A DNA stretch of 64,000 nucleotides, taken from positions 1 through 64,000 of the forward strand of contig JAKVCO010000006.1 of assembly GCA_022448245.1 (NCBI GenBank), written 5' to 3'. Source of the stretch: Paracoccaceae bacterium (GTDB lineage: Bacteria > Pseudomonadota > Alphaproteobacteria > Rhodobacterales > Rhodobacteraceae). A program made the position numbers and the translations under genes. Positions 1,602 to 17,709 of this stretch are shown here, one piece after another. The notes under the pieces were generated by a model. That model was not told where the DNA came from. It did not search any database and saw nothing but the letters and a program-made list of their open reading frames with translations. Numbering within the stretch: the first letter of the stretch is position 1; each line of letters opens with the position of its first letter.

Positions 1602-2828
1602 ATGCGCCGCGTCGTTATTACAGGTATCGGGATCGTCTGCCCGATCGGAAACACTGTCTCAGAAGTAGAAGCATCTCTACGCGCCGGGAAATCCGGGATC
1701 ACCGCCGAAGAGAAGTACAAAGAGCATGGCTTCCGCAGCCAGGTCGCGGGCATCCCGCGGATCGATGTCTCTGAACACATCGACAAGCGCCAGTTGCGCT
1801 TTATGGGCCCAGGTGCGGCGTATTCCTACATCGCTATGGAACAAGCCATCGCGGATGCAGGCCTTGAAGAGAGCGACATCTCGAACGAGCGCACAGGCCT
1901 TATCGCCTCCTCGGGCGGGCCGTCCACTTCGAACTTTTTCACGGCGTTCGACACGGTGATCAACAAGGGCTCGCCCAAGCGGATGGGCCCGTTCATGGTC
2001 ACGCGCTGCATGTCGTCGACTGTGTCGGCCTGTCTTGCAACGCCCTTCAAGATCAAGGGCGTGAACTACTCCATCACCTCGGCCTGCTCGACCACGCTCC
2101 ACTGCATGGGCAACGGCGCAGAGCAAATCCAGATGGGCAAACAAGACATCGTCTTTGCCGGCGGCGGGGAAGAGGTCGACTGGACGCTGTCGTGCCTCTT
2201 TGACGCGATGGGCGCGATGTCATCGAAATACAACGACACACCGGAGAAAGCCTCCCGCCCGTTTGACGCCACGCGTGACGGTTTCGTCATCGGTGGCGGT
2301 GGCGGCATGGTGGTCCTCGAGGAGCTCGAGCACGCCAAAGCACGCGGCGCCAAGATTTACGCAGAAGTCACCGGCTACGGCGCGACCTCTGACGGCCACG
2401 ACATGGTGGCTCCGTCCGGTGAAGGCGGCGAGCGTTCCATGAAACTGGCGCTCGGCACGCTGCCAGATGGCCGCAAAGTCGACTACATCAACGCGCACGG
2501 CACCTCGACGCCGGTGGGCGACGTGACCGAGATGATGGCCGTGCGCCGGGTCTTCGGCGAAGAGCACCCGGTGGTGACCTCCACCAAGTCGCAGACGGGC
2601 CACGCGCTCGGCGGCGCAGGCGTGCACGAGGCGATCTACAGCCTCATCATGATGGAGAAAGGCTTCATCGCACCCTCGATCAACGTGACCGAGCTCGCAC
2701 CTGAGCTGCGTCCCGACGAAGTGTGCACCGAGTACCGCGAGGGCGTGGAACTCGATTCCGTTCTTTCTAATTCCTTCGGTTTCGGAGGCACGAACGCCTC
2801 CATGATCATGAGCAAATTCAGCGAGTAA
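1602..2828 (+). CDS. fabB: Beta-ketoacyl-ACP synthase I
   Basis: [17 protein letters not shown]; active-site [43 protein letters not shown]; adjacent to fabI. Confidence 0.93.
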
Positions 2829-2833
2829 TACCC

Positions 2834-3622
2834 ATGGCAGACCTTTTGAAAGGCAAGAAGGGCCTGATTACAGGCATCGCCAACAACCGTTCCATCGCGT
2901 ACGGCATTGCGGCTGCGATGAAGGCCGAAGGGGCCGAGCTGGCCTTTGCGTGCCAGATGGACGTGTTCGGCGAGAAGGTGAAGCCCCTGGCAGAGGAGCT
3001 GGGCGTCAGCATCGTAACCGACTATTCCGCGACAGACGACGCAGTGTCGAAGGCCTGCTTTGATCGCTTGGCCGGTGAGTGGGGCTCGCTCGATTTCTGC
3101 GTCCACGCGATGGCCTATTCCGACAAGAACGAGCTCACGGGTTCCTTCACGGATACGTCGCGCGAGAACTTCAAGAACTCGCTCGATATCTCCGCCTATT
3201 CGCTCATCGACATGGCACGCAACGCGGCACCGCTCATGACCGATGGCGGTTCGATCATGGCCCTCACCTACCAGGGCTCCAAAAAAGCGACGCCGTGGTA
3301 CAATGTGATGGGCGTGGCAAAAGCTGCCCTTGAGACGACTGTACTTTACCTTGCAAATGACCTCGGGCCGCAAGGGATCCGCGTGAACTCGATTTCGCCA
3401 GGACCGATGAAGACGCTGTCCGGTGCCGCCATTGGTGGCGCACGCAAGACGTTCCGCTTCACGCAGGCAAACGCTCCCCTGCGCAAGAACGCGTCGCTCG
3501 AGGCAATCGGTGGTACGGCCGTCTACCTTGCGTCCGACTATTCGGACTGCACGACGGGTGAATGCATCATGGTCGACGGTGGCTACCACATCCTGGGCAT
3601 GCCGCAGCCAGACAACCTCTGA
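2834..3622 (+). CDS. fabI: Enoyl-ACP reductase (NADH)
   Basis: GKKGLITGIANNRSIAYGIA, ISPGPMKTLSGAAIGG; starts 6 bp after fabB. Confidence 0.93.
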   Translation: MADLLKGKKGLITGIANNRSIAYGIAAAMKAEGAELAFACQMDVFGEKVKPLAEELGVSIVTDYSATDDAVSKACFDRLAGEWGSLDFCVHAMAYSDKNELTGSFTDTSRENFKNSLDISAYSLIDMARNAAPLMTDGGSIMALTYQGSKKATPWYNVMGVAKAALETTVLYLANDLGPQGIRVNSISPGPMKTLSGAAIGGARKTFRFTQANAPLRKNASLEAIGGTAVYLASDYSDCTTGECIMVDGGYHILGMPQPDNL

Positions 3623-3629
3623 TCACCGG

Positions 3630-4079
3630 ATGATCGGCGCGCGGATAAAGGCAACGCTTGTTGAAGGCGTCGTTTGCCTCGCCTTGATGCTGCCGATCTT
3701 CTTGCTGCTTGAACGCCAGGACGTCGGTCTTTGGCTTTCATTTAGCTTGGCCGCCGCCCTGGGGCTCTTCTTTGCGCCTCTCGTTTTACTGCTCCGCGCA
3801 ATCGCGCGGGCAAAACCGCCCGCCGAAGAGCACCTTCGCGCCGGGCTCCAACTTGTCGGCGACGGCTGCCACCTGTGCCGCCTCATGCGGTTTTGGTTGC
3901 CGTTGGTCGCACTCCCCGGCGGCGTCGCAGCTGCAATCTACTGGGGCAGTTGGGGCGCCGCGCCGCTGGGCCTTGCAGTCACGGCGGTGCACCTCGCGAC
4001 AGGGCTTTCAGCGCTCGCTGAGGGGCGAGAGCCCCATTGGGCGCGTCTTACCGGGTTCCGGTTCGAACGCACCAACTGA
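3630..4079 (+). CDS. Small membrane protein of unknown function
   Basis: ATG at 3630; several hydrophobic segments (VVCLALMLPIFLLL, LSFSLAAALGLFFAPLVLLL, FWLPLVALPGGVAAAIYWG). Confidence 0.6.
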   Translation: MIGARIKATLVEGVVCLALMLPIFLLLERQDVGLWLSFSLAAALGLFFAPLVLLLRAIARAKPPAEEHLRAGLQLVGDGCHLCRLMRFWLPLVALPGGVAAAIYWGSWGAAPLGLAVTAVHLATGLSALAEGREPHWARLTGFRFERTN

Positions 4080-4080
4080 A

Positions 4081-4161
4081 CGAGGGGCCAGCCCCTCGAG
4101 CTCCCCGAAGTACATTTGCACAAAGAAGAGGGGCGCCCTCTTCTTTGTGCAAATGTACTTC
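4081..4161. repeat. Hairpin CGAGGGGC-CA-GCCCCTCG (4081-4098) followed by 26-bp perfect inverted repeat with 3-nt loop (4107-4132 / 4136-4161)
   Basis: GAAGTACATTTGCACAAAGAAGAGGG-GCG-CCCTCTTCTTTGTGCAAATGTACTTC read directly. Confidence 0.95.
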
Positions 4162-4214
4162 CGCCGGAGGCATCCCGACTTTTCAACTGCGCCGACCTGT
4201 GCGAGCCTCGCATC

Positions 4215-4889
4215 ATGTCTATCAGTACCTGCATTTTCGACGCCTACGGCACGCTCTTTGACGTGGGCGCCGCGGCGAGAGAGGCCGCAAAGGAGAACAC
4301 CGCTCTGGCCGACGCATGGCCCGGGCTTGCCGCGGATTGGCGGCGGAAGCAGTTGGAGTATTCGTGGCTGCGCGCCGTGGCAGGAACCTATTGCGACTTT
4401 TGGCAGCTCACGCAGGACGGGCTCGATTGGGCGATGGAAGCGGCAGGTCTGAGTGATGCCGCCCTTCGCCAACGCTTGCTTGATCTGTATTGGGAGCTTC
4501 AGGCTTACCCGGAAGTTCCCGAGATGCTGGAAGCTCTCGCGGGTGCCGGCAAAGCCACGGGCATTTTATCGAATGGATCACCCAAGATGCTAGATGCCGC
4601 GGTGACATCGGCGGGCATTGGAGACCTACTGGATGCGACGCTGAGCGTTGAAAGCGTGGGCATCTTCAAACCGGCAGCATCTGTGTACGATCTTGTCGGC
4701 CAGCACTTTCGCTGCACGCCATCTGAGGTTCTGTTTGTCAGCTCGAACGGGTGGGACGCCGCGCATGCGGCGGCTTACGGGTTCGAGACCGTATGGGTGA
4801 ACCGAGAAGGCTTGCCCATGGACCGTTTGCCGGGCGCGCCAGCGCATGTCGTCAGCGACCTCACAGCTATTTCAGGCCTCGCGCTGTGA
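4215..4889 (+). CDS. Haloacid dehalogenase type II, HAD superfamily
   Basis: CIFDAYGTLFDVGAAA; ILSNGSPKML; VSSNGWDAAHAAAYGF. Confidence 0.88.
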   Translation: MSISTCIFDAYGTLFDVGAAAREAAKENTALADAWPGLAADWRRKQLEYSWLRAVAGTYCDFWQLTQDGLDWAMEAAGLSDAALRQRLLDLYWELQAYPEVPEMLEALAGAGKATGILSNGSPKMLDAAVTSAGIGDLLDATLSVESVGIFKPAASVYDLVGQHFRCTPSEVLFVSSNGWDAAHAAAYGFETVWVNREGLPMDRLPGAPAHVVSDLTAISGLAL

Positions 4890-5701
4890 GTTACTTCACT
4901 GCCTCGGATGGAGCGCGGATTCACTTCAGCGACGAAGGCAACGGCCGCCCTCTCCTATGTTTGTCGGGCCTTACCCGCACGGGGCGCGATTTTGACTATG
5001 TGGCGCCCCACTTGCCGCCTTGCCGGTTGATCCGGATGGATTATCGCGGGCGGGGCATGTCTGATTTCTCGGGCGCCGCCACCTACTCGGTCCAACGTGA
5101 AGGCCAAGATGCAATTGAGCTTCTTGATCATCTGGGGATCGATAAGGTCTCTATCCTCGGGACATCGCGCGGGGGCATCATTGCTATGGTCTTAGCCTTC
5201 AGCGTGAAGGATCGGCTTGCGGCCGTGGCACTAAATGACATTGGCCCAAAGATCGAGGCGGCGGGGCTCGACGCGATCAAGGATTACCTCGGGCGGCGTC
5301 CCTCTTTCCGGACGTTGGATGAGGCTGTGAGCAAACGCTCAACGGTGATGACGGGCTTTGCCAATGTGCCCGAGGCCCGCTGGGCGCAGGAAGTGATGCT
5401 GCATTACCGTGGCGCGCTGGGGGGCCTCGATATCACCTACGATCCGGCCCTACGCGACGCCGTGTTAAGCAATGAGGCCGCCGCTGTGCCGGACCTCTGG
5501 CCCATATTCGACAGCTTGAATGGACTGCCCTTGGCGCTGATCAGAGGCGCGAATTCGGACCTTCTGAGCAGCGAAACAGCCCAAGAGATGCTCCGCCGCC
5601 GCCCGGATATGATCTTCGCGGATGTGCCCGATCGCGGGCATGTTCCTTTCCTTGACGAACCAGAAGCGCTCGAGGCGCTTCACACATGGTGGGACCTATG
5701 A
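4886..5701 (+). CDS. Alpha/beta hydrolase
   Basis: GTG start overlaps the upstream stop by 4 bp; GTSRGGIIAM nucleophile elbow; RGHVPFLDEP. Confidence 0.82.
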   Translation: MSYFTASDGARIHFSDEGNGRPLLCLSGLTRTGRDFDYVAPHLPPCRLIRMDYRGRGMSDFSGAATYSVQREGQDAIELLDHLGIDKVSILGTSRGGIIAMVLAFSVKDRLAAVALNDIGPKIEAAGLDAIKDYLGRRPSFRTLDEAVSKRSTVMTGFANVPEARWAQEVMLHYRGALGGLDITYDPALRDAVLSNEAAAVPDLWPIFDSLNGLPLALIRGANSDLLSSETAQEMLRRRPDMIFADVPDRGHVPFLDEPEALEALHTWWDL

Positions 5702-11087: not shown

Positions 11088-12320
11088 ATGAAGCTTCAAA
11101 CGCTCGACATCATCGTGACCGCTCCGCCCGCACCCGGCTGGGGCGGGCGCTATTGGATCTTCGTGAAGGTCACGACGGACACAGGGATCACCGGCTGGGG
11201 CGAATGCTATGCCTCCTCGATGGGACCTGCGGCCATGGAGGCCGTGATCCGCGATGTCTTTGACCGCCACATGGCGGGCGAAGACCCGGCCAACGTTGAG
11301 AAGATGTTCCGCCGCGCCTATTCCTCGGGCTTCACGCAGCGCCCCGACCTCACCGTCATGGGCGCGTTCTCCGGGCTTGAGATCGCCTGCTGGGACATCT
11401 TGGGAAAAGCCCGCGGCGAGCCTGTCTGGAAGCTCATCGGCGGCAAGATGAATGACCGCGTACGTGCCTACACGTATCTCTACCCCCTGCCCCATCATCC
11501 GCTGGATGAGTTCTGGACCTCGCCTGAAATGGCAGCCGAAGCAGCCGTCGCCGCTTGTGACGCGGGCTATACGGCGGTGAAGTTCGATCCCGCCGGGCCC
11601 TATACCCTGCGCGGCGGCCATATGCCGGGCATGCGCGATATCTCCATGTCGGTGGCCTTCTGCAAAGCGATCCGGGAAGCGGTAGGCGACCGCGCGGACC
11701 TCCTCTTCGGGACGCATGGGCAGTTCACGACGGCCGGCGCGATCCGGCTTGGCCAGGCTTTGGAGCCCTACTCCCCCCTCTGGTTTGAAGAGCCGATCCC
11801 GCCGGATGCGGTGGGCGAGATGGCGAAGGTAGCCCGTGCCGTGCGCATTCCTGTCGCCACGGGGGAGCGTCTCACGACCAAAGCCGAGTTCGCCACGATC
11901 CTGCGCGAAAGCGCCGCCACCGTCTTGCAGCCCGCCCTCGGGCGCAGCGGCGGCATTTGGGAGACAAAGAAGATCGCTACACTGGCGGAGGTCTATAACG
12001 CCCAGATGGCGCCGCACCTCTATGCGGGTCCCATTGAGTGGGCGGCGAACATCCAGCTCGCCGTGGCGATTCCGAACCTGCTAATGGCCGAAACGATCGA
12101 GACGCCGTTCCACGCGAACCTGATCAAGAACTCCATCCAGGTAGAGAAAGGGTTCATCCCCTCACCCACCGCCCCTGGCCTCGGGATCGAAGTTGATGAA
12201 GAGCTCGCCCGCGCGCATCCTTACACGGGCAATGACCTTCACCTGCAGATGCAGGAAGACCCGTGCGACTACGTCAACGGCAACAACTTCGAAGGCGGCG
12301 CGCCCGCACCGCGCGACTAG
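11088..12320 (+). CDS. Mandelate racemase/muconate lactonizing enzyme family (enolase superfamily)
   Basis: WGGRYWIFVKVTTDTGITGWGECY; AVKFDPAGPY; FEEPIPPDAV; GGIWETKKIATLAEVYNAQMAPH. Confidence 0.85.
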   Translation: MKLQTLDIIVTAPPAPGWGGRYWIFVKVTTDTGITGWGECYASSMGPAAMEAVIRDVFDRHMAGEDPANVEKMFRRAYSSGFTQRPDLTVMGAFSGLEIACWDILGKARGEPVWKLIGGKMNDRVRAYTYLYPLPHHPLDEFWTSPEMAAEAAVAACDAGYTAVKFDPAGPYTLRGGHMPGMRDISMSVAFCKAIREAVGDRADLLFGTHGQFTTAGAIRLGQALEPYSPLWFEEPIPPDAVGEMAKVARAVRIPVATGERLTTKAEFATILRESAATVLQPALGRSGGIWETKKIATLAEVYNAQMAPHLYAGPIEWAANIQLAVAIPNLLMAETIETPFHANLIKNSIQVEKGFIPSPTAPGLGIEVDEELARAHPYTGNDLHLQMQEDPCDYVNGNNFEGGAPAPRD

Positions 12321-12352
12321 ACAGGCCCTGCCCGAGCCCGTAACCCGGAGCC

Positions 12353-12943
12353 ATGGCACGGGATACCGCTCAGAAACACGACGCGTTGCGCAAACGGCTG
12401 ATTGACCTGGCCGAGGTGCGGATCGCTGAGGGCGGGCTCGATGTGCTGAAGGCGCGCGACCTTGCGGCGGAGGCGCCCTGCTCCGTGGGCGCAATCTACA
12501 ATGTCTTCGACGACCTGAAGGACATCGCGCTCGCCGTGAACGGGCGCACCTTTCAGCGGATTGGCAAGACGGTGGGTGCAGCCGTTCACGAACGAAACCT
12601 GCCCCCGCGCGACACGCTTATCGCCCTTTCCCACGCCTACCTGCACTTCGCGACTGAGAACCCGCGCCTGTGGCGGGCGCTCTTTGATATCGAGCTGACC
12701 GAAGATGACGACACCCCGGAATGGTACCTGGCAGAGCTGCGACAGCTCTTCGCTTATATCGCCGCCCCGCTGCATGAAGTCTTTCCGGAATACAACGACA
12801 CCGACATCGAGCTGATGACCCGCGCGCTGTTTTCTTCGGTGCACGGTATCGTCCTCCTCGGGCTCGAGCGTCGTATCTCTGGCGTTCCGCCCGAAATGCT
12901 CGAACGCATGATCGAGCTCGTCCTCTCCAACATCGCCGACTAG
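12353..12943 (+). CDS. TetR/AcrR family regulator
   Basis: N-terminal HTH-like [47 protein letters not shown]. Confidence 0.82.
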   Translation: MARDTAQKHDALRKRLIDLAEVRIAEGGLDVLKARDLAAEAPCSVGAIYNVFDDLKDIALAVNGRTFQRIGKTVGAAVHERNLPPRDTLIALSHAYLHFATENPRLWRALFDIELTEDDDTPEWYLAELRQLFAYIAAPLHEVFPEYNDTDIELMTRALFSSVHGIVLLGLERRISGVPPEMLERMIELVLSNIAD

Positions 12944-12972
12944 CCGTTTCCGTACTGGAAACGAACTATTTT

Positions 12973-13043
12973 TGAACTTTGTTCATAGTATTTATTGAAC
13001 GTCGTTCATGGATACCAATATCCCCATTCATGAACACAGTTCA
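12973..13043. promoter_or_regulatory. Three copies of operator-like palindrome TGAAC-N3-GTTCA
   Basis: TGAACTTTGTTCA 12973-12985; TGAACGTCGTTCA 12996-13008; TGAACACAGTTCA 13031-13043. Confidence 0.8.
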
Positions 13044-13059
13044 CAACCGGAGAAACCAG

Positions 13060-13731
13060 ATGCTGACCACACTTCGAACCATCTTCATTGGCGAGAGCCG
13101 CCGTGCAGAAGAAAAGATGCGTGATCACTATGCGCTCGACCTCATCGCCCAGAAGATCCGGGAAACCGAGGACGCACTGAAGGCCGCAAAGGGCACGCTG
13201 GGCGCACTTATCCAGCGACAGCGCAGCGAGACCCGTCAGATCGACGGCCTCAACCGCCGCCTCGTCACGATGACCGAACGCGCTCAAGCCGCTCTTTCGG
13301 ACGACAATGAAACGCTCGCAGCGGAAGCCGCACAGGCCGTCGCCACGATGGAAAACGAGCGAAAGGTCCGTGAAACGACGCTGGAACGGCTCGATCAACG
13401 GATCATTCGTCTCAAAAGCTCCGTCGAAACGATGCACCGCCGCATCATCGACCTCAAGCAAGGTGAGATCGCCGCACGCGCCGCGCGCCATTGCAACGAA
13501 ATCCACCGCCGCATGAGCAGCACCATTGGGAACACCGCCCCTGCCAACGAGGCGCAAAAGCTCATCGACCGCGTCCTCGGTCAAGAAGACAGCTTCGAGC
13601 AGGCCGAGATCATGGACGGCATCAATGCCGATCTCGACCACACGAACCTCGATGATCGCATGGCCGCCGAGGGCTACGGCCCGGCCACTAAATCCACCGC
13701 CGCCGACGTGCTGGCACGCCTGAAATCGTAA
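13060..13731 (+). CDS. PspA/IM30 family protein
   Basis: Coiled-coil protein with PspA-like layout (ALIQRQRSETRQIDGLNRRL...RAQAALSDDNETLAAEAAQAV...RIIDLKQGEIAARAARHCNEI); RBS CCGGAGAAA before the ATG at 13060. Confidence 0.75.
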   Translation: MLTTLRTIFIGESRRAEEKMRDHYALDLIAQKIRETEDALKAAKGTLGALIQRQRSETRQIDGLNRRLVTMTERAQAALSDDNETLAAEAAQAVATMENERKVRETTLERLDQRIIRLKSSVETMHRRIIDLKQGEIAARAARHCNEIHRRMSSTIGNTAPANEAQKLIDRVLGQEDSFEQAEIMDGINADLDHTNLDDRMAAEGYGPATKSTAADVLARLKS

Positions 13732-13772
13732 CTGAAACCAAATCTGAAAACGCAATCTTAAGGACTGAAAAC

Positions 13773-14045
13773 ATGTATAACTCTGACAACGGCCTCATCA
13801 TCTTCTTCAACGCAGCCGGCGTGGTTCTTTCCTACGTTATGCTCGGCATCTCGCTGTGGCTTTCCACCGACGTACCTCTCGCCACCAAGGGTTTCTGGGC
13901 CATCGGTATCCTGATGCTGACGCTGAGCCTCGTTAACTTCGTCAAGTTCCGCTTCGATGATCGCATCAGCGAAGACCGCATCACCCAGATCGAGGCAGCC
14001 AAGAACGAGAAGCTGCTCAAGGATTACGTGGGCGGAGAGGAGTAA
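13773..14045 (+). CDS. YiaA/YiaB-like two-helix inner membrane protein
   Basis: Two hydrophobic helices with charged tail (STDVPLATKGFWAIGILMLTLSLVNFVKFRFDDRISEDR). Confidence 0.6.
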   Translation: MYNSDNGLIIFFNAAGVVLSYVMLGISLWLSTDVPLATKGFWAIGILMLTLSLVNFVKFRFDDRISEDRITQIEAAKNEKLLKDYVGGEE

Positions 14046-14064
14046 AACAACCGCCATCAGTCTG

Positions 14065-14094
14065 AGGGGCTCCGAGAAATCGGGGCCCCTTCTT
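14065..14094 (+). terminator. Intrinsic terminator after pspA-yiaAB
   Basis: AGGGGC-T-CCGA-GAAA-TCGG-G-GCCCCT followed by TCTTC. Confidence 0.65.
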
Positions 14095-14194
14095 CGTGAT
14101 GGGGCAAGAATAACTCATACATTAACGTATACATAATTACATTCGGCGAAAGAATCTTTTTTTAATGTTGCCCAGGGACTGGCACGCAATAAAA

Positions 14195-14232
14195 CGTTGG
14201 TTAGTCGCGGCGAAGGGCAACCTTCGCCAACG
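14195..14232 (+). promoter_or_regulatory. Structured leader upstream of dctP
   Basis: GGCGAAGG-GCAA-CCTTCGCC (14209-14228) nested inside CGTTGG (14195-14200) / CCAACG (14227-14232); RBS GGGAGG follows. Confidence 0.6.
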
Positions 14233-14249
14233 CTCAATGGGAGGATACA

Positions 14250-15293
<1,044 letters not shown>

Positions 15294-15319
15294 GCTTCGC
15301 CGACTGGCATGAAGATCTC

Positions 15320-15351
15320 AGACGCTCCCCTGCCTTGGGGGGCGTCTTTCT
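15320..15351 (+). terminator. Hairpin/attenuator between dctP and dctQ
   Basis: GACGC-T-CCCC-TGCCTT-GGGG-G-GCGTC followed by TTTCTC. Confidence 0.65.
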
Positions 15352-15451
15352 CTGCAAGTGTTGATCTGCATCAAGGCCCCTTTGGGGGGCTTCATCCAGA
15401 TGAACTTATCTGAAGACGTCGCGCGCCGCTCGCGCGGTATGGGAGGGGCAA

Positions 15452-16261
15452 ATGTCATACGATGCTGACGAAATCGCAGCAGTCTCCGATCCCGGAGACA
15501 TAGATCGCGAAACCCACAACCGCGGAGACCGCTTCGTCGTTGGCATCAGCAACTACCTCGCATGGCTCTTCCCAGTCCTGATGATGGTCATCGTCATTCA
15601 GGTTCTTTTTAGAAACTTCGGCCGCATCGGCGTGGGCCCTGGCAACCAGGCGTGGATGGATGACCTGCAATGGTGGGTTTACGGCATCGCGTGCCTCGTG
15701 GGCGTGGCCTATGCGGTGACCACCAACAGTCACGTGCGCGTGGACATTTTCTACGACAACTACCCCGATCAGAGGCGCCGTCGCGTGGATCTCTTCGCTC
15801 TGGGTTGGCTCTTTTTGCCCTTCGCAATCCTGACCTGGGACATCACCTTCCACTATGCCTACGCTTCGATCCTCGCGTGGGAAGGCTCCGACAGCCCCAA
15901 CGGCCTCCACAACCTTTGGTCGCTGAAAGTGATTATGAACCTGTGCTTCATCTTGCTGGCCTTCGCGATTTACACGCGGATTTTGCGCATCCTCTCGAAC
16001 GCAGGTGAGAATACGGGCTGGGCGCGGTTCGTCTGGACCCTTCCTTCGGTCATTCTCAGCGCCAATCTCGTGATCTTTTATGCGTTCTGGTGGATCACAC
16101 GCTGGACCGATCCGGAGATGAACCCGCGCTCCATCGCACGCAACGGCCTCATGATGGCCGAGATCGAGTACGGCCCCTATGAGACCAAACTCACCGTCTT
16201 CGCCGCCTTCGCAGTGACTGCAATCCTCGGCGCTGTGCTCTACGCCCGGAGCGCTCGCTAG
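15452..16261 (+). CDS. dctQ: TRAP transporter small permease
   Basis: Four hydrophobic segments; RVDIFYDNYPDQRRRRVDLF; position between dctP and dctM. Confidence 0.85.
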   Translation: MSYDADEIAAVSDPGDIDRETHNRGDRFVVGISNYLAWLFPVLMMVIVIQVLFRNFGRIGVGPGNQAWMDDLQWWVYGIACLVGVAYAVTTNSHVRVDIFYDNYPDQRRRRVDLFALGWLFLPFAILTWDITFHYAYASILAWEGSDSPNGLHNLWSLKVIMNLCFILLAFAIYTRILRILSNAGENTGWARFVWTLPSVILSANLVIFYAFWWITRWTDPEMNPRSIARNGLMMAEIEYGPYETKLTVFAAFAVTAILGAVLYARSAR

Positions 16262-17709
16262 TGTTTATCCTCGAAGCTCTTGGGCAGTTTCTGACCCTCA
16301 ACGAGATCCTCGTCGCGCTGATCTTTGGCACCTTCATTGTGCTCCTGTTCCGCGGTGTGCCGGTGGCCTTTGCTCTCGTAGGCGTTGCGCTGATCTTCTT
16401 CAGCTTCGCGCAAATTTTCCTCGACCCATTCCGGAGTGAGTTCCGAGATGTCATCGAATTCGACCGAATAGGGCTGGAGTATAAAAAGCTCGGCGTGCAG
16501 GGCGGGCGGCTCTTTGGCTCCATCGTTAAAAACCCGGTCCTTGTGGCCTTGCCCATGTTCATCTTCATGGGCTTGATGCTGGATCAATCGGGCGTGGCCC
16601 AGCGCATGATGCAGTCGATGCAAAAGCTCTTCGGTGGCCTCAAGGGTGGGCTGTCACTGACGGTTCTCTTGATCGGTATCATCCTTGCAGCCTCCACCGG
16701 TGTGATTGGTGCGTCGGTCACGCTTCTGGGCGTGATGGCCCTGCCCGCGATGATGAAGCAGAACTATTCCAAGCCGATCGCAACCGGCACGATTGCCGCT
16801 TCTGGTACGCTGGGGATACTGATCCCGCCGTCGATCATGCTGGTGATCATGTCGGACCAGCTAGCGATTTCGCTGGGTGACCTCTTCATGGGCGCGCTCT
16901 TCCCGGGGCTAATCCTCGGGGCGCTCTACATCATCTTCATCGTGATCTATGGCTTGATCCGTCCGCAAGACATGCCGACCCCGGACCGCACAGAGGCCAT
17001 CGGCTGGACCGAGGTAAAAGAGGTTCTTCTTTCGGTCATCCCGCCGATGCTGCTGATCCTTCTGGTTCTGGGCTCCATCTTTGCGGGCATCGCAACACCG
17101 ACCGAGGCGTCGGGCCTTGGCGCCCTTGGTGCCACCTTGCTCGCCATCGCTTACGGCCGCTTCTCCTGGAAGGTTCTGCGCGAGGTGTCGCACTCCACAC
17201 TCAACACCTCGGGCTACATCCTTGGCATCTTCCTGGCGGCGAACTTCTTTGCCTTCGTGCTGCGCGCCTATGGTGGCGACGAAGTGGTGGAGCACATGAT
17301 TGAAGGGGTGTTCGAGAACCCATACATGGTCGTGGCCTTCATCCTCTTCATCGTCTTTCTCTTGGGCTTCCTGCTCGACTGGATTGAGATCACGCTGATC
17401 ATCATGCCGCTTATGCTGCCGATCATTCAGGGCCTCGCGCTCGAGGTGCCGGACTATGGCACGATCAACGACGCGCAGGTGGTCTGGTTCGCAATCCTTG
17501 TGGCGGTGACGCTGCAAACATCCTTCCTTACGCCGCCTGTGGGCTTTGCGCTCTTCTACCTGAAGGGTGTGTGTCCGCCCGGCGTGAACCTCGGTCACAT
17601 CTATCGCGGGATCATTCCCTTCGTGATGCTGCAGCTTCTTGGCCTCTTGATCGTGTTTGAGATGCCTTGGCTCACGACGTGGCTGCCGAGTGTGGCCTAC
17701 GGGAACTAA
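16261..17709 (+). CDS. dctM: TRAP transporter large permease
   Basis: VPVAFALVGVALIF; GVIGASVTLLGVMALPAMMKQNYSKPIATGTIAASGTLGILIPPSIMLVI. Confidence 0.93.
   Translation: MFILEALGQFLTLNEILVALIFGTFIVLLFRGVPVAFALVGVALIFFSFAQIFLDPFRSEFRDVIEFDRIGLEYKKLGVQGGRLFGSIVKNPVLVALPMFIFMGLMLDQSGVAQRMMQSMQKLFGGLKGGLSLTVLLIGIILAASTGVIGASVTLLGVMALPAMMKQNYSKPIATGTIAASGTLGILIPPSIMLVIMSDQLAISLGDLFMGALFPGLILGALYIIFIVIYGLIRPQDMPTPDRTEAIGWTEVKEVLLSVIPPMLLILLVLGSIFAGIATPTEASGLGALGATLLAIAYGRFSWKVLREVSHSTLNTSGYILGIFLAANFFAFVLRAYGGDEVVEHMIEGVFENPYMVVAFILFIVFLLGFLLDWIEITLIIMPLMLPIIQGLALEVPDYGTINDAQVVWFAILVAVTLQTSFLTPPVGFALFYLKGVCPPGVNLGHIYRGIIPFVMLQLLGLLIVFEMPWLTTWLPSVAYGN

Follow-up and report, generated by a model that had tools for sequence, protein, structure and literature searches.

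Three genes on the forward strand of the window (the whole 64-kb stretch of DNA that was analyzed) form a compact cassette: a gene for a TetR-family regulator, a pspA gene and a gene for a small YiaA/B-like membrane protein, with three putative operator sites ahead of pspA (Table 1). An earlier note on this DNA had described a TetR, a PspA/IM30 protein and a YiaA/B-like protein as one unit closed by a terminator, and all of these elements were found where it had placed them. The closing hairpin has a weak T tail and was missed by our pattern scan. A second terminator-like hairpin, lying directly 3' of tetR, is absent from the earlier note.

Table 1. Features of the tetR-pspA-yiaAB cassette, in window coordinates
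Feature	Position	Strand	Evidence
tetR, TetR-family regulator, 196 aa	12353..12943	+	TetR_C_33 2.2e-12
Terminator-like hairpin after tetR, then ACTATTTTT	12945..12963	+	pattern scan; -9.4 kcal/mol, z -3.3
Putative operator site 1, TGAACTTTGTTCA	12973..12985	.	exact match; conserved at about -87 from pspA start
-35 box TTGAAC, overlaps putative operator site 2	12995..13000	+	locus alignment
Putative operator site 2, TGAACGTCGTTCA	12996..13008	.	exact match; conserved at about -64 from pspA start
Candidate -10 box AATATC, 16 nt after -35	13017..13022	+	adjoins place of the family's TATATC-like box
Putative operator site 3, TGAACACAGTTCA	13031..13043	.	exact match; conserved at about -29 from pspA start
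pspA ribosome-binding GGAG	13049..13052
pspA, PspA/IM30 (ESCRT-III superfamily), 223 aa	13060..13731	+	PF04012 1.7e-14
YiaA/B-like membrane protein gene (yiaAB), 90 aa	13773..14045	+	PF05360 4.5e-4
Terminator-like GC-rich hairpin after yiaAB	14064..14091	+	-26 kcal/mol, z -3.5

The regulator scored 47.9 bits against TetR_C_33 (cut-off 26.8) and 19.9 bits against TetR_N, just under the cut-off of 24, and its AF2 model has a pLDDT of 94.5. The closest solved structure is 3cjd from Jannaschia sp. CCS1 (56% identity, TM 0.88-0.96), and the TetR_C_33 score together with this fold match places the protein in the TetR family. The 3cjd entry, deposited by structural genomics in 2008 and titled a putative regulator, has the same fold as the window TetR and most likely represents the same regulator in a relative; our literature search found no paper naming 3cjd together with TetR. 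Further matches were to KstR, FasR and FadR-like folds at 14-22% identity, with KstR also among the sequence matches.

The bacterial protein PspA is related to the ESCRT-III proteins, which remodel membranes. The 223-aa product scored 54.4 bits against PF04012 (cut-off 33.9), which makes it a member of PspA/IM30, an assignment on which the earlier note had staked its own reading. Against the classical PspA equivalog TIGR02977 it scored 19.2 bits, far from the cut-off of 243. A profile search of the PDB matched Vipp1/PspA structures, and the AF2 model (pLDDT 79) has a helical hairpin fold like that of Vipp1/PspA, with a fold match to Vipp1 7o3w (E 3.5e-4) and a TM(target) of 0.77 over 113 columns to E. 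coli PspA 4whe, the whole-length superposition being poor (rmsd >30). For the third gene, the PF05360 match of the window protein (20.8 bits) is under the cut-off of 26.6; 23 of 26 aligned relatives match this family, the best at 1.1e-17, and the homologue in Thioclava carries a YiaA/YiaB family annotation. The assignment is weak for the window protein itself and clear for its relatives.

The cassette is flanked by genes for a zinc alcohol dehydrogenase, a mandelate-racemase-like enzyme and a DctPQM TRAP transporter, and the nearest relative (L002, an uncultured Rhodobacteraceae MAG) has the same gene order. A genus-mate, G231, has the alcohol dehydrogenase and mandelate-racemase-like genes, and no PspA was found in it by profile and sequence searches of the family genomes. 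We rejected G231 as a clean empty-site comparison because the TRAP genes that follow are missing along with the cassette. Before dctP, at 14115-14140, lies an element TTAACGTATAC, which is common to L002, where it forms the palindrome TAACGTATACGTTA; it is likely an operator at which a different regulator would control the TRAP transporter.

Putative operators and promoter ahead of pspA

The earlier note had seen three copies of TGAAC-N3-GTTCA, only in front of pspA, and these are indeed the only exact copies in the window; two more matches with one mismatch are scattered. Under a first-order Markov model of the window, 0.042 exact sites and approximately 3e-11 triplets within 71 bp are expected per 64 kb, and the triplet is thus far beyond chance. 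The 3.7 Mb genome as a whole holds five exact sites, three of them at the cassette. The other two lie within an aldehyde dehydrogenase gene (C56:217744) and between an SDR gene and a short ORF (C16:4407). A wider regulon was considered and rejected, as these extra sites and the single sites in relatives, small hints aside, give no consistent target.

When the loci are aligned on site 2, its left arm reads as CTTGAAC, followed after about 17 nt by a TATATC-like box and then by site 3. The nucleotide before site 2 is T in each of the 53 three-site loci, which completes TTGAAC, and TATATC is the column consensus at the -10 place over these 53 loci, the window's own AATATC being weaker. In ten loci with a decayed site 2 it is the right arm that is altered, and TTGAAC, TTGACC, TTGACG, TTGAT or TTGC is mostly kept at the -35 place. 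On this alignment, site 2 must double as the -35 box, site 3 would fall at about +1 to +13 of the transcript, and sites 2 and 3 would look like the frame of a sigma-70-type promoter built for repression. A search for sigma-54 promoters (TGGCAC-N5-TTGCW with up to 2 mismatches) retrieved no match from 12269 to 16325.

Conservation and variants of the cassette

We searched 397 genomes of the family with the window PspA, of which 70 had a match, and analyzed 67 loci for sites, with the G161 locus left out. The earlier note had suggested a survey for the palindrome upstream of other TetR-linked PspA homologs, and the pattern recurs widely: 52 of the 67 loci have three exact sites before pspA, 14 have two, and one has a single site. 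In the three-site loci the spacing is 22-23 bp in 51/52 and 34-35 bp in 47/52. When 385 genomes of the class were searched for the bare triplet, no locus type other than that of the cassette came up; one match, in another family, has a divergent tetR, pspA and yiaAB, and profile searches extend the cassette to further alphaproteobacterial families. The window PspA query missed divergent Rhizobium homologues on plasmids, which a query from family f174 found. As judged from these searches, the cassette is deeply conserved across many alphaproteobacteria. Of 20 relatives whose genomes were scanned for the sites, five have exactly four, and in each of these all four belong to the cassette locus.

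The position of tetR varies among these loci. In 56 loci it lies upstream of pspA in the same direction, and in 50 of them tetR is itself preceded by a site, at a distance of about 25 bp. The earlier claim that no site stands in front of tetR holds for the window and for L002 but fails as a trait of the system; since 50/56 same-direction relatives have such a site, its loss in these two loci is probably secondary, and a lack of tetR autoregulation would be a peculiarity of this genome rather than of the system. Ten loci (L060-L064 and L066-L070) have a divergent tetR, with the same array in the intergenic space that tetR and pspA share. In G090, a TetR of the same type is encoded downstream of yiaAB, from which a small gene and a DUF2145 gene separate it, and the array stays with pspA. 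The locus in G133 has pspA and two sites, with no TetR within the surrounding 9 kb. Family f70 loci (L161, L162 and L164) carry TGCAC-N3-GTGCA or TGAAC-N3-GTGCA arrays before pspA, which may be a further operator variant, and no TetR of the cassette type was found within 1.5 kb of them.

A variant that bears on the regulator is found in the genus g658 (9 loci). Here sites 1 and 3 read TGAGC-N3-GCTCA, with both arms changed symmetrically, and site 2 is either TGAGC or TGAAC, so that the loci have three TGAGC-type sites or two plus a TGAAC site 2. Among the aligned TetRs, Asn at recognition-helix position 45 together with Thr at position 34 occurs in exactly the g658 loci; position 45 is V, L, I or T in TGAAC-type loci. 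This covariation is the best evidence that the TetR reads these sites, and it is strong but not conclusive. We would like to note that the g658 TetRs also differ at other residues, and that the change may represent a single evolutionary event, counting as one at most because it is confined to one genus.

Several further observations were made at and around these loci. In L109 (G632), a second triple operator (3804-3870) with the same 22/34 bp spacing precedes a fatty acid hydroxylase gene (PF04116, 3934-5169) just downstream of pspA-yiaAB. A small secreted-protein gene and a DUF2145 gene have operator sites in two genera (L095 in G336, 3022-4216; L065 in G090, 4111-5291), with two sites around the promoter in G336 and one at the gene start in G090. 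In two genera, one site lies approximately 20-40 bp ahead of related FAD-binding oxidase genes (PF01565; L104 in G259, 2970-4497; L108 in G381, 3049-4614). A single site also lies near a conserved 360-aa coiled-coil protein with no clear Pfam family in two genera (L072, contig C16 of the window's own genome, site 2001-2013 and gene 2632-3726; L105 in G259, site 3032 and gene 1801-2877); as the orientation differs between the two, this proximity is perhaps chance. The divergent-type loci L060, L069 and L173 (a Thioclava plasmid) have a conserved third gene after yiaAB, encoding a protein with an Lnb_N / DUF4105 domain. Just 5' of site 1, some loci have a TGACGT-N-ACGTCA-like inverted repeat and others a GGAAAC...GTTTCC hairpin (L004, L006, L028, L051, L057, L058 and more); these may be alternative terminators of tetR or a further binding site.

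The components of the classical system were also searched for. PspF (TIGR02974) was over cut-off in 0 of 24 genomes, with one control genome over it, and PspC (PF04024) matched in 0 of 24, with positive controls. PspA/IM30 was over cut-off in 56 of 298 family genomes, and 55 of them, all retrieved by the window PspA search, are of the cassette type. The exception, G243 (L165), has none of the three cassette proteins by the profiles used.

Regulation of the operon and its possible signal

Published data link the operon to stress induction in a distant relative. The megaplasmid of Rhizobium tropici CIAT 899 carries a homologous cassette, with a divergent tetR, three sites (23 and 36 bp spacing), pspA and yiaAB. 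RNA-seq of cells grown at pH 4.5 reported a log2FC of 4.87 for pspA (RS28825) and 4.46 for its neighbour RS28820, that is, both 20- to 30-fold up, and a 45-min acid exposure gave a log2FC of 4.42 for pspA; the same study lists the TetR, RS28830, with the regulators found under acid stress (PMC5936775). We matched these tags to the cassette by gene order and replicon, as the plasmid record is without annotation. Judging from its location, RS28820, called hypothetical in that study, is most likely the yiaA-like gene. The earlier note's suggestion of an envelope stress system fits both the PspA family and this induction.

Control of the PspA/YiaAB operon by the TetR, distinct from the PspF type as had been proposed, is strongly supported by the operator geometry, the covariation of sites and recognition helix, the lack of PspC, true PspF or a sigma-54-like match, and the sigma-70-like promoter within the sites. 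We consider it very probable that a dedicated TetR repressor controls pspA-yiaAB as a membrane-maintenance operon through up to three palindromes and is released under envelope stress. In an unstressed cell, TetR dimers would sit on as many as three of the palindromes and keep RNA polymerase out: site 2 overlaps the -35 box, site 3 would lie where transcription begins, and site 1 immediately precedes the promoter. Under envelope stress (acid, in the relative), the TetR would let go and pspA-yiaAB would be transcribed from the sigma-70-type promoter; PspA polymers would then shore up the inner membrane, aided by the small two-helix membrane protein. The TetR of most relatives would repress its own gene as well. 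We infer that the control is negative, that release is driven by a ligand, that the products serve the membrane here and what the signal may be; from the TetR fold, a lipid or acyl-like molecule would be our guess.

It is highly improbable, in our estimate, that another regulator binds the sites and that tetR is a travelling neighbour. Such an arrangement would suit G133 and some f70 loci, where sites or site-like repeats have no tetR nearby. However, most relatives carry a site before tetR too, divergent loci place one array between tetR and pspA, and in g658 the sites and the recognition helix change together. TetR and PspA distances are also correlated (r 0.65; 0 of 2000 permutations), which we do not take as proof because vertical descent, that is, shared ancestry alone, explains it too. 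Activation, or a dual action, by the TetR from the upstream site 1 is likewise very improbable: site 1 lies upstream of the -35 box and is kept in nearly all loci, even those without site 2, but repressors typically bind where sites 2 and 3 lie, over the -35 box and the predicted start, and most TetR proteins repress.

The nature of the signal leaves somewhat more room. A protein or membrane-state signal, for example PspA itself, could release the TetR instead of a small ligand, following the precedent of E. coli PspA holding PspF (PMC9239133), and no inducer is known for the window TetR or 3cjd. We nevertheless find this unlikely, as the TetR fold normally has a ligand pocket and the nearest ligand-characterized folds (KstR, FasR and FadR) bind acyl-CoA or sterol-CoA, albeit at 14-22% identity. 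In R. tropici, the homologue rose 20- to 30-fold at pH 4.5 and within 45 min (PMC5936775), which could also mean that the system senses low pH specifically, with acid as its direct cue, rather than acting as a general envelope stress switch. We doubt this too: acid also damages membranes, the data cover a single stress, and acid would be no obvious stress shared by the marine and soil groups in which the family is common.

Extending the preferred reading, that of a stress-released TetR repressor, we raise a tentative possibility: in much of the Alphaproteobacteria a TetR might run the PspA response and itself directly sense a product of membrane or acid damage. The operator code would have evolved together with the repressor, and lipid-modifying enzymes, such as the G632 fatty acid hydroxylase, would occasionally be recruited under the same triple operator. 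The cassette bears on how PspA production is timed in bacteria that have neither PspF nor PspC. The switch is compact, portable and conserved, and its operator code can be read. Its regulator has a close relative of known structure (3cjd), and acid induction has been published for R. tropici; together, these features make the signal directly testable in a laboratory strain.

Comparison with known systems

The families of the parts are all known, and the regulated TetR-pspA-yiaAB unit appears to be undescribed; our literature search found no description of a TetR-PspA or PspA-YiaA pairing. Two large surveys of PspA systems report HTH genes adjoining pspA and PadR-like regulators; their main texts do not mention TetR or Yia proteins, and no conserved operator array is described in the portions available to us (PMC9239133, PMC11237479). 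In a Zymomonas TetR paper, pspA appears only as a gene raised on deletion of another TetR. The R. tropici study lists PspA as induced and suggests TetR regulators of efflux pumps, and the part of it available to us neither connects the two genes nor describes the sites (PMC5936775).

KstR, FasR and FadR-type repressors share the fold with the window TetR and have palindromic sites, as the window TetR would too, but differ from it in their targets. Similar to E. coli PspF-PspABC, the cassette has a PspA/IM30 effector that would be set by a dedicated neighbouring regulator. In contrast to that system, a TetR here would replace the sigma-54 activator PspF, with a sigma-70-like promoter under the operators, a YiaA/B-like partner would stand in for PspB/PspC, with PspC absent, and the PspA itself is remote from the classical model. 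LiaFSR-LiaIH and other PspA operons with HTH regulators also combine, as here, a local regulator with small membrane proteins.
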